Origin: Pseudobdellovibrionaceae bacterium
Lineage (GTDB): Bacteria; Bdellovibrionota; Bdellovibrionia; Bdellovibrionales; Bdellovibrionaceae
DNA length: 64,000 nt
Direction: 5' to 3'
NCBI GenBank assembly: GCA_019637915.1
Contig: JAHBUV010000001.1
Span: 1,024,565-1,088,564 of the forward strand
Shown here in pieces: positions 57,180-63,743 of this stretch. A model generated the notes under the pieces. It did not search any database. It had not been told where the DNA came from and was given only the letters and a program-made list of their open reading frames with translations. Numbering within the stretch: the first letter of the stretch is position 1; each line of letters begins with the position of its first letter. A program made the translations under genes and the position numbers.

Positions 57180-57449
57180 ATGGGATCTTTCAGTCTGACA
57201 CATCTTTTGCTGCTTTTGGTGATCGTGCTTCTTTTCTTCGGCCCCAGCCGTTTGCCGAATCTCGGGCAATCCCTGGGTCGCGCCATCCGCGGCTTCAAGG
57301 ACGGCCTGAACGGCCAGGATGAAGAGAGCCAGAACTCCACCCGCTCGGTGGGTTCGAACTCACCGGAGCAACTGCCGCCCTCGCAGCAGCCGGGCGGGCA
57401 AAACGCCACCACCACGCAGAATCAAAAAGACCCGCAGTCGCGGTCCTGA
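57180..57449 (+). CDS. tatA: Sec-independent translocase protein TatA/E
   Basis: Pore-forming component of the twin-arginine export system. The 89-residue protein has the short N-terminal membrane helix (LTHLLLLLVIVLLFFGPSRLP), the FGP hinge, the amphipathic helix (LGQSLGRAIRGFKDGL) and a polar Gln/Asn/Ser-rich tail. tatB and tatC are not adjacent. Its 3' end overlaps the convergent nnr gene by 28 bases. Confidence 0.92.
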   Translation: MGSFSLTHLLLLLVIVLLFFGPSRLPNLGQSLGRAIRGFKDGLNGQDEESQNSTRSVGSNSPEQLPPSQQPGGQNATTTQNQKDPQSRS

Positions 57450-58855
57450 ACGCGCTTCATCACGCCGCCCAAGAGCCGCGGCAGGTCCGAAGCCATCAGA
57501 CTCATGGCGGGTTTCCCCGATTTCACCCACTCATCCGCGATCGCCCCGTGGAGATAGGCCCCCAAGGCGGCGCCTTCCTCAACCCCCAGGCCTTGCGCCC
57601 ACAGCCCGCCGATGAAGCCGGCCAGCACGTCGCCGCTGCCGGCCTTGGCCAAAGCGGAATTGCCCGAATGAATGATGAACGAACGCCGTCCATCGTCGAT
57701 GACGGTGCGGAAACCCTTGAGAAGCACGCGGCAACCGAGCATCCGGGAAGCGCGGCGGGCGGCCCCGAGACGGTCCTCCTCGATGGCGGTCGACGGGATC
57801 TTCAGGAAGCGTGAAAGCTCCCCCGCATGGGGCGTGACGAGCCATTCCGGCGGCAGCGGCCACAAACGCTCCTCCGCGCAAACCGTCAGGGCGTCGGCGT
57901 CCACCAGAACCCGAGGATGAGAATTCTTCAACCGCAGCAGAAGATCCTTCGTTTTCACGTTGACGCCCAGACCGGGCCCCAGCACCACGGCCCGCGCCCG
58001 CCCCCAGTCGCCGCGCAGAGCCCGGTTGAAATCATGAAAGAGAAAATCCGGCGGCTTGCGATCGAACGGAATGGTCGCCGGCGAACTCAGCAGCACGTAA
58101 CCGGCGCCCGCCCGCGCCCCGGCGGTGGCGGAAAGAACGGCCGCCCCCTCCATCCCCGGCGAACCGCCCAGGACGAGCAATCTTCCAAAATGAGATTTAT
58201 TTGCCATGGCCCGGCGTTTCGGCCACAACCGGCGCGCCGTCGAGCGGCCCACCAGAAAACAGCTCGAGGCGATCTCCGCGAGAAGTTCCCGCGGGAAACC
58301 CACGTCGACGATTTTGATCTTTCCGCAAAGCCCCGGGCCCTCCTGCAGGAACAATCCCGGCTTGGCCAAACCGCAAGTCAGGGTCCATCGCGCCTTCACC
58401 GCCGCGCCCAGGGGGACGCCGCGATCGGCGTCCAGACCGGAGGGCACGTCCACCGCGATCACGGGCCGGCGTGAACGACGGACGCTTTCGATGAGACTCG
58501 ACCACTCCGCCCCCAAAGGGCGGTTCAAACCCACGCCGAAAAGGGCGTCGACGATCAAATCAGCGGAGTTGAGATCGGATTCCGCCGCCGTGAAATCACG
58601 CGGGAAAGAAAAATCCTCGACCCGGGAAAAGCCTTTTTCCCTCAAGACGCGCGCGATGACGCGGCCGTCGCCGCCGTTGTTGCCGGGGCCGCACAAGACC
58701 ACGATCCGATGGGACGGGCGCAAACCGGGCCAGCGGCCGATCTCCGCCGCCATGGCACGGCCGGCGTTTTCCATCAATTGCGCCGAAGCGAGCCCGAAGC
58801 GGGAGGCGCTCAACCGATCGATCTCGAGAATTTCCGCTTGCCGTGCCAATCTCAT
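57422..58855 (-). CDS. nnr: Bifunctional NAD(P)H-hydrate repair enzyme (epimerase and dehydratase)
   Basis: Repairs hydrated NAD(P)H. The N-terminal YjeF_N half has QLMENAGRAMA, CGPGNNGGDG and DALFGVGLNRPL (epimerase). The C-terminal ribokinase-like half has GRLLVLGGSPGMEGAAVLSA, GPGLGVN, TPHAGELSRFL and NSALAKAGSGDVLAGFIGG with the catalytic Asp (ADP- or ATP-dependent dehydratase). Predicted 477 residues, normal for the fusion. ATG 58855 (MRLARQAEILEIDR) fits the family N-terminus better than a GTG eight codons earlier. Confidence 0.95.
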   Translation of the reverse strand: MRLARQAEILEIDRLSASRFGLASAQLMENAGRAMAAEIGRWPGLRPSHRIVVLCGPGNNGGDGRVIARVLREKGFSRVEDFSFPRDFTAAESDLNSADLIVDALFGVGLNRPLGAEWSSLIESVRRSRRPVIAVDVPSGLDADRGVPLGAAVKARWTLTCGLAKPGLFLQEGPGLCGKIKIVDVGFPRELLAEIASSCFLVGRSTARRLWPKRRAMANKSHFGRLLVLGGSPGMEGAAVLSATAGARAGAGYVLLSSPATIPFDRKPPDFLFHDFNRALRGDWGRARAVVLGPGLGVNVKTKDLLLRLKNSHPRVLVDADALTVCAEERLWPLPPEWLVTPHAGELSRFLKIPSTAIEEDRLGAARRASRMLGCRVLLKGFRTVIDDGRRSFIIHSGNSALAKAGSGDVLAGFIGGLWAQGLGVEEGAALGAYLHGAIADEWVKSGKPAMSLMASDLPRLLGGVMKRVQDRDCGSF

Positions 58856-58986
58856 GCCCCCGCAGAATCGCGCCGGCACCGGGAAAAGTCAAAGCGGCGC
58901 GGGAGCCGCGTTTCCCTCTGAAAACGGCCGCCGTGTTGACAGAATCCTCATTTGCGCCGCCGGCCCGCCTGTGCCATGCTCCCCTC

Positions 58987-60147
58987 ATGAAGCCCCTGGC
59001 CCTGCGGGACACCGCCCGCCGCAGCCTTGAAAAGAACCTCACGGAAACCTCTCACGGTGTTTTCCTGCGGGCGGGCGCCCATCAGTTCGCGTCGTTCTGG
59101 ACCCGTGATTTCTGCTTCGCCGTTCCCGGCCTCCTGCGCCTGAACCACGCCGCCGTCGCCCGCGCCCAGATCGATTTTCTCCTGCAGCATCGCCGCGCCG
59201 ACGGCCTCGTGCCGCGCGGTTTCGACAGCGTCAATCCCAAGCGCCGGGTGATCCGCCACACCCTGCTGCGCCGCTGGTCGAAACCGGAACCCGCCGTGGA
59301 CCGACGCCCGCTGAAGGCCGAGTACATGGGCGAGCACAACACGCCTTGTTTTGACAGCAACGCCCTCCTGCTGTGGGCGGCGGCCACCACCGCCCTCAAG
59401 GGGGGATCCGTCGACTGGTTCCGGGAGCGCGCCTCGTTCTGGCATCAGCTCGTCGAATTTTACGACCCCCACCGCCGCAACGGCCTGATCCACCAGCCCC
59501 CCTACTCGGACTGGCAGGATTCCACCCGGCGCGAAGGTCCCGGTTTCTACGTGAATCTGGTTTTCTGGCGCGCGCTCCTCGCCGCCCGCCAGGCCGGCGT
59601 CCCCCTGCTCAGCGTCCCGCAGGAGAAAAACCTCGAGGAGAAAATCTTCCATTTCTTTTTCGATCCCCTGGAGGAGTTGTTCGTGCAGGACCGCCGCTTC
59701 CGGCAGGTGCCCCTCGAGTGCCACCTCTGGGTCCTCGGCGAGAACCTCTTCACCGATTTCATCAGCGGCGAAAAGCTCTACCAGAAACTGCGCTCGCACC
59801 CTTTGTGGAACCCCGGCGGCATCCCCGTCTATCCGCCCTCGAAACCGGATCAGGTCTCGTGGACGACGAAAATCGTCGGCCTCAGGCACTACCACGACGG
59901 CCTCGTCTGGTCCTGGCTGCTCGCCGAGCAGGCGCGCACCGCCCACCGCTTCGGCGACACCGCCGCCCGCAATCATTTGTTGCTGGTCGCGGAGGACAGC
60001 GCCCGAAAGCAGGGCTGGATCGGCGAGGTGGACCGACCTTTCGGCGACCACCTCATCCCCTTTGAAAGTTCCCTGTACCGCTCGGAAAGCCCCTTCAGCT
60101 GGGGCGCCGCCACCTGGGTCGACGTCCTCGCCGAAATCGGCCCTTAG
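58987..60147 (+). CDS. Six-hairpin glycosidase-like protein
   Basis: A 386-residue cytoplasmic-looking protein of the alpha/alpha six-hairpin glycosidase group. Supporting segments are ASFWTRDFCFAVPGLLRL, DGLVPRGFD, FDSNALLLWAA, PPYSDWQDS and HDGLVWSWLLAE, which resemble amylo-alpha-1,6-glucosidase-like and GH63/GH100-type enzymes. The substrate could be a storage glucan or trehalose-like sugar, but this cannot be read from sequence. Its TAG overlaps the convergent top6A stop by three bases. No sugar transport or glycogen gene is near. Confidence 0.75.
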   Translation: MKPLALRDTARRSLEKNLTETSHGVFLRAGAHQFASFWTRDFCFAVPGLLRLNHAAVARAQIDFLLQHRRADGLVPRGFDSVNPKRRVIRHTLLRRWSKPEPAVDRRPLKAEYMGEHNTPCFDSNALLLWAAATTALKGGSVDWFRERASFWHQLVEFYDPHRRNGLIHQPPYSDWQDSTRREGPGFYVNLVFWRALLAARQAGVPLLSVPQEKNLEEKIFHFFFDPLEELFVQDRRFRQVPLECHLWVLGENLFTDFISGEKLYQKLRSHPLWNPGGIPVYPPSKPDQVSWTTKIVGLRHYHDGLVWSWLLAEQARTAHRFGDTAARNHLLLVAEDSARKQGWIGEVDRPFGDHLIPFESSLYRSESPFSWGAATWVDVLAEIGP

Positions 60148-61310
60148 ACGTACGAACCGCGTTTGATTTTTTCCAGGATGATTTTTTCCGTCTTGATCGG
60201 ATCATTCGGATCCACGGAGAAATAAGCCTGTTGCTCGCAACGGACCTTCTCTTTGATCAGCCAGCGCAGGATGTCCGCCAGGCCCTTGTTCTTCTTGTCG
60301 CTGAAGAAGGGATCGTTCTCGAGGACGTCGCGGGCTTTTTTGAGGGCGCGCGCCTCGGCCGGATCGGATTCCTTCACTTTGTAATGGGGCAGGTCGTACT
60401 TCTTCACGTCCTCGGGCAGCACGCCCAGGAACTTCACGTCCGGCGCCGAGAAATCGGCGTTGCGGATGAGCGAAGCGGCCGAACCGGCCTTCAGGGTCCG
60501 GAAGATGTTCTGCATCGTGTACGCGTCCAAGTCGCCGAAGAAGTACATCGGCACGCTCAGCTCTTCCTGGATCAGCTTGCACCAGCCGCGCACGCCGTTC
60601 GAGGGCACGCCCTGGGCGCCGATCAGGATGCAGTTGTTGCGCTTGGTGAAACCCATGGTGTGCAGGGTGTTCGCCGTGCCCTCGGACTCGATGACCAGGG
60701 CGAAGTCGATCTTCTTCTTGGCCTTGAGCTTCAGGGACTGGGGCCGGTTCTTCGGCATGAAGGGCGCCGTCCCCAGGGTCGACAGGTCCACCGTCGCCCT
60801 GTCGCCGTCGGGCATGGTTTCCTGCACGATCAGCTGGTTCGAGTAGGTCTGGCCGCCGCGGTCGTTGGCGAAGCAGTTCAGCTCCTCGCGGTAGACCTTC
60901 ATCATGTCGCCGATGAAGTCGATGATCGAATCGGATTCGTTCTGATCCTCGAAATCCAGGGGCTTGTAGCGGGCGTTGCCTTTGATCAGGCCTTTGCACA
61001 TGTAATAGAGCTCACGCTTCGTGTTGACCGCGCCGATGCCGAGGTTGCGCAGCATGATCTCCAGCATGAACACGACCCGGGCCAGCTTCTGCACCGAGGA
61101 CACGTTCAGCTCGGTGCGCACCACTTTGTCGCCCGGGGTGAGGTAACCCACCTTGGAATTGTAAAACGAATTGTCGAGGGAGGTCTTCACGGCCTCCAGG
61201 TAGGGTCTTTTCGAGTTTTCGAGGTCCTTGAGCATTCTCTCCGCGAGGTTCTTCGCCTCTTTCGGGATATCGATCTTCAACTCACGGACGCGAATCAATC
61301 CACCAGCCAT
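60144..61310 (-). CDS. top6A: DNA topoisomerase VI subunit A (Spo11-like)
   Basis: Catalytic subunit of type IIB topoisomerase, making double-strand breaks with a covalent tyrosyl link. The 388-residue protein has the 5Y-CAP motif NTKRELYYMCKG (Tyr102/103) and a Toprim domain with Glu in LVIESEGTANTL, then FFGDLDAYTM giving the DxD acidic pair. RNNCILIGAQGVPSNGVRG matches the segment before it in archaeal subunits. It follows top6B by 13 bases. Topoisomerase VI is the rule in archaea and plants and only sporadic in bacteria, so horizontal transfer at some point is likely. Confidence 0.92.
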   Translation of the reverse strand: MAGGLIRVRELKIDIPKEAKNLAERMLKDLENSKRPYLEAVKTSLDNSFYNSKVGYLTPGDKVVRTELNVSSVQKLARVVFMLEIMLRNLGIGAVNTKRELYYMCKGLIKGNARYKPLDFEDQNESDSIIDFIGDMMKVYREELNCFANDRGGQTYSNQLIVQETMPDGDRATVDLSTLGTAPFMPKNRPQSLKLKAKKKIDFALVIESEGTANTLHTMGFTKRNNCILIGAQGVPSNGVRGWCKLIQEELSVPMYFFGDLDAYTMQNIFRTLKAGSAASLIRNADFSAPDVKFLGVLPEDVKKYDLPHYKVKESDPAEARALKKARDVLENDPFFSDKKNKGLADILRWLIKEKVRCEQQAYFSVDPNDPIKTEKIILEKIKRGSYV

Positions 61311-61323
61311 CGCTCACTCCACT

Positions 61324-63138
61324 TCAGGCTTTTTTCCCGGTTGTTTTTTCCGTGCCCTTCACCGTCGACTTGGGCGGCGGAGGCGGAGGGGCTTTTTTCG
61401 CCGTCGTTTTTTCCGTCGTCTTCTTGGTGCCGCCGGCGGCCTCGGCGGAGTCCTCGACCTGGCCGTGATAGATCACCGTGTCTTCACCGCCGCCGCCGTC
61501 GTCCTCGCCGCTCTTCCTCGCCTCGCGGGCTTTTTGCTTCGCCAGGCGCTGCTCGGCCTCTTCCAGCTCGGCGATGGCGTCCTTGGAATCGCGGCCCAGG
61601 ATCTTCTTCAAGCCCTCTTCGGCCTTCTTGCGCCGGGCCTCGTTCGCCCCCGTCAACTGCGCGAGCTTCTCGACCAGGATCGGCCCGAACTGCTCGATGT
61701 GCGCCAGTTTGCGCTCGAGATCGGCCTCTTTGAACTCCCGCTTGATGTGGCGGGACAGTTTCTGCCCGGCCTGGATCAGCGCCAGACGGATCTCCTGAAC
61801 CAGCTCCTCGGAGGCGTCGATGGTCTCTTTCGAGGCGTTTTTGAATTTGATGAAAGGCGAAGTCACCGACACCGCGAAGACGTAAGGTCCCAGCGGCAGG
61901 GAGTCTTTCGGCTGCTGCACGCCGTAGGATTTCCAGTTCACCGACTCGATGGCCCAGGTGATGGCGCAGCCGGATTTGTCAAATTGCAGGGGAACGCGGT
62001 TGGCGAAACGCAGCAGCTGCACCGGCGAATCCGCGTCCTGGTTGCGGCTGGTGAAACGCGCCAGGGCCACTTCGACCACGACGGGCTTGAAATCGCAGAT
62101 GCGCGGTTTGCGGGTGACGACGGCGAAGAAGTCGGTCTCCCCCAGGCGCTGGATGGACTTCGACAGGGATTCCTCGCCGACCGTCAGCACGGAGCGCGTC
62201 GACGGCGCCATGAGATCGGTGTTCTGGACCGCCTGGAAGATCTTTTTGTAATCATCCTCGCTGAGGCCGGTGAGGGCCTTGTCCAGCAGGCCCTTCGGCA
62301 GGCCGTGCTTTTTCACCATCTCCTGCAGGGCCTGGTCCGAAACGCGGGAAAAACCGCTGCGCAGGAATTTCGAGACGCTGACCTTGCCGTACAACGTGGC
62401 ATGGGTGATGAACTCGCCCAGCTTGAAAGTGTGGGGGTGCGGCAAGGTCGCCTCCGGGACGTCCGGCGACTGGTTGCTGACGCGCTCGATTTTCACCCAA
62501 TCGTTTTCCGCGAGCTTGTAATTGATGGTCAGGTGCGGGTTCACCAGGACGGTGCCCTCGATGTAGGTCAACAGACCGCCGTCGCCGTTCAGCTGGATGC
62601 GGCCGTCCATGGCGAACTCGACGCGGGTGCCATGGGGCTTGTTCCACTCGATGGTCTCTTTGGAGCGCACCAAGCCGTGATTGGATTTGATGTCGACGTC
62701 GATCTGCGCCTTCAGGGCCTTGCGCATGCCTTTGGTTTTCGACGTGACGGTGACGCCGCGACCGTTGGTCATCTGCGCCCAGGTGGTGGCGGCCGAGATC
62801 CCGATCCCCTGCTGCCCGCGGGTGCACTGACCGCGCCCGAATTTGGACGAAGCCAGGTATTCGCCGAACACCTTCGCCAGGTCGTCGGGGTCGATGCCGG
62901 GCCCGTTGTCCTCCACGACGATCTTCACCAGATCGGTGTTTTTCGTGGATCCCGTCCCGACCTTGGTCACCTCGATTTCAAGATCCGGCAGGATCCCGGC
63001 CTGCTCGCAAGCATCCAAAGAGTTGTCGACCCCCTCTTTCAAGGTGGTCAGAACGGCCTTCAAAGGGGAGGAAAAACCGACCTGTTGCAGGTTCTTGGCG
63101 AAATATTCAGCGGTGCTGCTCTTGGTGATTTTACTCAC
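61324..63138 (-). CDS. top6B: DNA topoisomerase VI subunit B
   Basis: ATPase subunit of topoisomerase VI. The 604-residue protein begins STAEYFAKNLQQVGF, the family opening, followed by the GHKL nucleotide site: N-box TLKEGVDNSLDA (N39), G1 VEDNGPGI, and G2 RGQQGIGISAA. The transducer domain follows. The last ~60 residues are an unusual low-complexity tail of Lys, Thr and Pro with repeated TTEKTT-like units, likely to contact DNA. The start is GTG. It precedes top6A in a two-gene operon, giving a complete A2B2 enzyme. Confidence 0.93.
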   Translation of the reverse strand: MSKITKSSTAEYFAKNLQQVGFSSPLKAVLTTLKEGVDNSLDACEQAGILPDLEIEVTKVGTGSTKNTDLVKIVVEDNGPGIDPDDLAKVFGEYLASSKFGRGQCTRGQQGIGISAATTWAQMTNGRGVTVTSKTKGMRKALKAQIDVDIKSNHGLVRSKETIEWNKPHGTRVEFAMDGRIQLNGDGGLLTYIEGTVLVNPHLTINYKLAENDWVKIERVSNQSPDVPEATLPHPHTFKLGEFITHATLYGKVSVSKFLRSGFSRVSDQALQEMVKKHGLPKGLLDKALTGLSEDDYKKIFQAVQNTDLMAPSTRSVLTVGEESLSKSIQRLGETDFFAVVTRKPRICDFKPVVVEVALARFTSRNQDADSPVQLLRFANRVPLQFDKSGCAITWAIESVNWKSYGVQQPKDSLPLGPYVFAVSVTSPFIKFKNASKETIDASEELVQEIRLALIQAGQKLSRHIKREFKEADLERKLAHIEQFGPILVEKLAQLTGANEARRKKAEEGLKKILGRDSKDAIAELEEAEQRLAKQKAREARKSGEDDGGGGEDTVIYHGQVEDSAEAAGGTKKTTEKTTAKKAPPPPPPKSTVKGTEKTTGKKA

Positions 63139-63316: not shown

Positions 63317-63634
63317 TCACTCATCCTCGGCGACGGAAGGGGCGGCCAGGGTCTCCAGGGCCAGCTCGGCGGTGGTCTTCGCGCCCTTTTTGGTGTTGCA
63401 GGCTTTGCAGCAGGGCACGCAGTTCTTCTTGTTCGAAAGACCGCCCCGGGCCACGGGGATGACATGGTCCATGGTCAGTTCCGCCGGCGGGAAACGGCCT
63501 TCGCAATAATGGCAGATGCCCCGGCCGCGTTGCTGCTTCCACCATTGCGACTGGCGCAGCTCCCGGGCCTTGGCCTTTTCACGTTTCTGATGCTCCGGCG
63601 AGGCCGGCACGTACCAATCCGAAAGATCCGACAT
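63317..63634 (-). CDS. Small HNH endonuclease
   Basis: A 105-residue protein with a complete HNH/McrA-like motif: CHYCEGRF, LTMDHVIPVARGG, NKKNCVPCCKACNTKKG, with two CxxC zinc pairs. The N-terminal 40 residues are basic and helical. I chose ATG 63634 (MSDLSDWYVP); the longer frame upstream has no support. It is upstream of top6B on the same strand, 178 bases away. The role could be in repair, restriction or an element; context gives no partner. Confidence 0.85.
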   Translation of the reverse strand: MSDLSDWYVPASPEHQKREKAKARELRQSQWWKQQRGRGICHYCEGRFPPAELTMDHVIPVARGGLSNKKNCVPCCKACNTKKGAKTTAELALETLAAPSVAEDE

Positions 63635-63743
63635 AACACCGCGAGTTATAGCATGGAATCCAGACCAAAGCCAAGTTGAACGGCACCCGCGGGATTCCGA
63701 CAAGAACACGAGGAAAAGCGCGTTCGTCCACGAAGGAGAAAAG

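Follow-up and report, generated by a model that had tools for sequence, protein, structure and literature searches.

Topoisomerase VI in a Topo IV-lacking member of the Bdellovibrionota and Lys-rich tails on non-gyrase topoisomerases of the phylum

The window, a 64,000-nucleotide stretch of a Pseudobdellovibrionaceae genome that was analysed as a whole, encodes both subunits of topoisomerase VI (Topo VI) in a genome where gyrase was found and Topo IV was not, and within the phylum Bdellovibrionota Topo VI and Topo IV are, practically, mutually exclusive. It is quite likely that a working Top6A2B2 Topo VI does the job of Topo IV in this organism, that its lineage descended within the phylum and that the Lys-rich tail of Top6B aids processivity. 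In the proposed mechanism, the Top6A2B2 heterotetramer would transiently cut one DNA duplex with a two-nucleotide stagger and pass a second duplex through the opening, strand passage being powered as the Top6B dimer closes in an ATP-dependent manner. Topo VI would thus unlink replicated chromosomes, the role of Topo IV in most bacteria, gyrase would set negative supercoiling, and the disordered Lys-rich end of Top6B would keep the enzyme on DNA, as with the lysine repeats of Streptomyces TopA. That Bdellovibrio bacteriovorus, a member of the same lineage, carries the same gene pair and a gyrase with no Topo IV is already published, with compensation proposed (Allen and Maxwell 2024, PMC11302465, cited here and below from excerpts; one species per family was sampled, 17 bacteria). 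The present analysis adds the exclusion across the phylum, a second Topo VI lineage and the Topo IV family with a short ParC, of which, as of the tail, those excerpts give no account, and it adds that Lys-rich tails recur on several topoisomerases other than gyrase.

The features of the locus are as follows.

61324..63138, minus strand: top6B, DNA topoisomerase VI subunit B (604 aa; GTG start; GHKL ATPase, H2TH and transducer)
60144..61310, minus strand: top6A, DNA topoisomerase VI subunit A (388 aa; catalytic-tyrosine winged helix and toprim)
61513..61641, minus strand: second post-transducer helix of Top6B, residues 500-542 (from alignment and structure model)
61327..61512, minus strand: disordered, low-complexity tail of Top6B, residues 543-604 (acidic stretch, then Lys/Thr/Pro-rich end)
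63317..63709, minus strand: gene for an HNH endonuclease, upstream of top6B

The gap between top6B and the downstream top6A is 13 bp. Both products exceed the cut-offs of equivalog-level NCBIfam models (subunit A, 449 bits against 424; subunit B, 532 bits against 274), and Pfam matches comprise TOP6A-Spo11_Toprim (3.5e-38) and TP6A_N (2.7e-13) in Top6A and Topo-VIb_trans (4e-46) plus two GHKL matches in Top6B, in agreement with the complete operon proposed by the initial annotation. Alignment of Top6A with 1d3y, 2zbk and 2q2e reveals that the catalytic tyrosines Y102/Y103 and toprim residues E208 and D260/D262 are kept; 1d3y itself is matched at 3e-34, with all active-site residues aligned. 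Top6B retains E35/N39, D77/G79/G81, G108-G113 and the transducer switch lysine K437, positions that display no variation in an alignment of 30 relatives. Judged from their sequences, top6B and top6A together are a complete Topo VI with all catalytic residues, and the enzyme is probably active, as the same annotation had supposed. Its view of an old presence also holds, the GC content of the genes (58-61%) resembling that of the window and the genome sample (59-62%). Of 80 related loci, 79 have Top6A and Top6B next to each other, and 20, mostly from close relatives, repeat the order HNH-top6B-top6A; this is an association only, and the endonuclease is not claimed as part of the enzyme. Downstream of top6A, positions 57180-60147 encode a TatA-like protein, an NAD(P)H-hydrate epimerase/dehydratase and a glycogen-debranching-type (GDE_C) protein, the last convergent with top6A.

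Among solved structures, Top6B matches that of Methanosarcina mazei (2q2e; 1.8e-87) and that of Saccharolobus shibatae (2zbk; 2.2e-61). An AlphaFold2 model built on a 30-row alignment matches M. mazei Top6B (9o0g/2q2e) with Foldseek E values down to 1e-46 and a TM of 0.66-0.70. M. mazei Topo VI, which also coexists with gyrase, shares the GHKL, H2TH and transducer fold at 32-33% identity. The two proteins differ at the C-terminus, where M. mazei Top6B carries a terminal immunoglobulin-like domain, while in the model of the protein described here the transducer is followed by two helices, a long one at 444-496 and another at 500-542, and then by a disordered segment (543-604; pLDDT about 27-40), with no globular C-terminal domain. 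S. shibatae Topo VI (26% identity) likewise has a helical C-terminal end and lacks the Ig-like domain (PMC9348778; PMC11302465), but that archaeon, unlike the window host, has no gyrase. The Ig-like domain has been reported only in gyrase-containing archaea, those without gyrase having a helical Top6B C-terminus (PMC9348778). This archaeal rule fails here, since the bacterial lineage has gyrase and yet a helical Top6B C-terminus, extended by a tail. Helix 500-542 presents a pattern, RKKKAEEGLxKxLGRDxxxA..., that is recognisable in its own Topo VI lineage and has no counterpart in an archaeal-like lineage described below.

The C-terminal tail of Top6B carries the sequence SGEDDGGGGEDTVIYHGQVEDSAEAAGGTKKTTEKTTAKKAPPPPPPKSTVKGTEKTTGKKA. 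The lysine fraction of its last 40 residues, 0.25, ties for the highest among 504 gene calls (~660 kb). By charge the tail is only mildly basic, with a net +5 in its best 20 residues, a value reached by 16% of background proteins. Background samples were obtained by simple gene calling over ~660 kb (G000) or ~200 kb (G048, G057 and G008). The own-genome background was a codon-scored gene set; a longest-ORF set, in which an antisense ORF displaced top6B, was dropped. Several thresholds were used, as a strict criterion of 30% Lys over 30 residues misses the window tail. In 101 Top6B proteins of the same lineage the tail extends 4-288 residues past the second helix (median 49) with no conserved sequence. 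Strongly basic tails, defined by a net charge of +6 or more in some 20-residue stretch, occur in 48% of these proteins, against 7% of own-genome background proteins. Thus, the Lys/Pro-type tail noted by the initial annotation is real and unusual within its proteome, but it is common and variable among relatives.

Nor is such a tail peculiar to Top6B. In Topo VI genomes TopA has a Lys/Ala-rich C-terminal tail, and in samples from two of these genomes (51% and 42% GC) Top6B and TopA both lie in the top 0-1.3% of the proteome for terminal lysine. In family f17, which has Topo IV, TopA ends without a basic tail, and it is ParE and ParC that reach the top 0-1.3% in the genome sampled (G008); a Lys-rich ParE tail is found in 18 to 21 of 30 f17 genomes, depending on the threshold. 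GyrA lies at or below the middle of the proteome samples, and no strongly basic stretch was detected in the GyrA and GyrB sequences tested. The tail as a mark of decatenases only was rejected, TopA bearing one too. The closest known parallel is provided by the histone H1-like, Lys-rich C-terminal repeats of actinobacterial TopA, which in Streptomyces stabilise the enzyme on DNA and raise its processivity (PMC7398561). Actinobacterial TopA is a type IA enzyme, while the Lys-rich ends described here belong to a type IIB B subunit, to TopA or to the type IIA subunits ParE and ParC. In our analysis a DNA-holding role of the tail appears plausible, the Lys-rich end of Top6B most likely giving extra non-specific DNA contacts that would hold the enzyme on DNA. 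In these cells, whose division is by multiple fission and whose chromosome is strongly compacted, the shared tails suggest a common means by which topoisomerases other than gyrase are held on DNA.

About half of the lineage has no strongly basic tail, which counts against such a role, and there is an appreciable, though smaller, chance that the tail is functionless, a drifting low-complexity end that became lysine-rich by chance. Its variable length, its unconserved sequence and the modest charge of the window tail are what drift would leave. The same composition nevertheless recurs on Top6B, TopA, ParE and ParC and not on the gyrases tested, and the proteome extreme is reached in genomes of 37%, 42% and 51% GC, which speaks against mere drift. 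A broader reading is offered tentatively: the decatenase slot may be filled by unrelated enzymes (Topo VI of either lineage, or a Topo IV whose ParC lacks the C-terminal domain), the enzyme in the slot repeatedly gaining an unstructured Lys-rich tail that would replace a missing DNA-crossing or localisation domain. Tail and enzyme would be modular, the tail being selected by role rather than by descent.

The source genome (3.32 Mb, 99.8% complete; closest named relatives Bdellovibrio and Pseudobdellovibrionaceae) contains exactly one GyrB and one GyrA/ParC homologue, encoded side by side. The latter bears the GyrA box QRRGGKG and is therefore gyrase. The initial annotation had placed Topo VI beside the usual gyrase and Topo IV; examination of the genome for gyrA, gyrB, parC and parE instead yielded a single gyrase pair, with no second GyrB/GyrA-type pair that could represent Topo IV. 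Because Topo IV is absent, Topo VI is probably the only dedicated chromosome decatenase. M. mazei Topo VI is a preferential decatenase (PMC8837201; PMC9348778) and complements an E. coli parE-ts mutant, the latter stated as unpublished data (PMC11302465). In a review, B. bacteriovorus Bd0005 is called "Top IV" and Bd2865 "Top II" (PMC11318664). This naming is probably mistaken, since in a complete genome of the same family and another genus (G048) the only GyrA lies ~6.5 kb from the contig start and carries the GyrA box; Bd0005 would then be gyrase A and, judging from its position beside Bd2864, Bd2865 would be a Topo VI subunit.

The distribution of these enzymes was followed in an even draw of 291 Bdellovibrionota genomes, whose families carry anonymous labels (f1-f28) and in which counts are of genomes, not of independent events. 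Top6B was found in 173 and Top6A in 172 of the 291, nearly all Top6B belonging to one strongly supported lineage, so that "sporadic", as Topo VI had been described for bacteria, does not fit this phylum. A GyrB was detected in 164 Topo VI genomes, and 162 of these have exactly one. The other two are of lower quality: in G022 (90% complete, 5% contamination) the extra GyrA bears a GyrA box, and G207 (77% complete, 5% contamination) has one GyrA only. Family f17 (96 genomes) has no Topo VI, and 86 of its genomes contain at least two GyrB homologues. Its ParC, 473-492 aa in all 30 genomes tested, ends before any C-terminal domain, and parE adjoins parC, directly preceding it in the plus-strand loci with measured spacing (loci L129, L151:3386-6990 and L155-L184). 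Fisher's test on genomes gives P = 4e-46 for the exclusion of Topo VI and Topo IV, a value that overstates it because few evolutionary events are involved, f17 being one clade.

An alternative, which we consider unlikely, is that Topo VI is an accessory enzyme for repair, recombination or the DNA breaks of a life-cycle stage, while decatenation falls to gyrase, as it does in bacteria that have only one type IIA enzyme. Families f13 and f21, one genome of which is 100% complete, have gyrase alone and no Topo VI, and a separate decatenase is thus not strictly needed. G241, a 97% complete genome from the same family as the window, has one gyrase and neither Top6A nor Top6B; this may be a true loss, but a single assembly gap could also take out both adjacent genes. 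An accessory role fits poorly with the near-universal retention of Topo VI in its clade (Top6B in 97 of the 99 genomes of the window's class) and with f17, which lacks Topo VI but has Topo IV. Topo VI presence does not always mean replacement, because the two enzymes coexist in other phyla (PMC11302465), but it is very improbable that Topo VI is here a third, redundant type II enzyme added to gyrase and Topo IV, given one GyrB and one box-bearing GyrA in a nearly complete genome. The three enzymes do occur together in seven bacterial families elsewhere (PMC11302465).

Replacement of Topo IV by Topo VI thus remains the preferred reading. Whether bacterial Topo VI replaces or duplicates Topo IV is considered an open question (PMC11302465), and it becomes directly testable in a phylum where the two exclude each other and where the Topo VI carriers include Bdellovibrio, a genetic model that can be cultured.

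In the Top6B tree, which includes partial archaeal sequences and is read for grouping only because of the extreme branch lengths to these, the window's class and the other sampled families of the main lineage form one group with 100/100 support, and B. bacteriovorus is the nearest row to the window by path. The initial annotation had set vertical descent in a large bacterial clade, with the tail conserved as a normal feature, against its own reading; the descent is observed, but the tail varies among relatives. A second Topo VI lineage, in six genomes of f14 and f18 (loci L083-L088), has a divergent Top6B that groups with archaeal sequences and displays no extension past the transducer. The two lineages imply that Topo VI entered the phylum, or diverged in it, in at least two ways. 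In the GyrA tree f17 is a single clade and backbone support is weak, which leaves the direction and order of the Topo VI-Topo IV switches unsettled. Topoisomerase VIII is a plasmid-borne type IIB enzyme, on a free or integrated plasmid, in which the A and B parts are fused. It was rejected as an identity for the window enzyme, which is encoded by two separate full-length genes on a 3.26 Mb contig and is shared by descent. No viral contigs with relatives of either Topo VI lineage were found, and plasmid-borne relatives comprise only three haloarchaeal megaplasmids.

Matches to the histone family PF00808 have E values of about 1e-4 to 1e-3, the limit of detection, and their presence or absence across genomes is therefore not readable. 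One small protein (L132; G000:C1:1826222-1826374) with a borderline histone-fold match (E 6.7e-4) is probably the bacterial histone known from Bdellovibrio.
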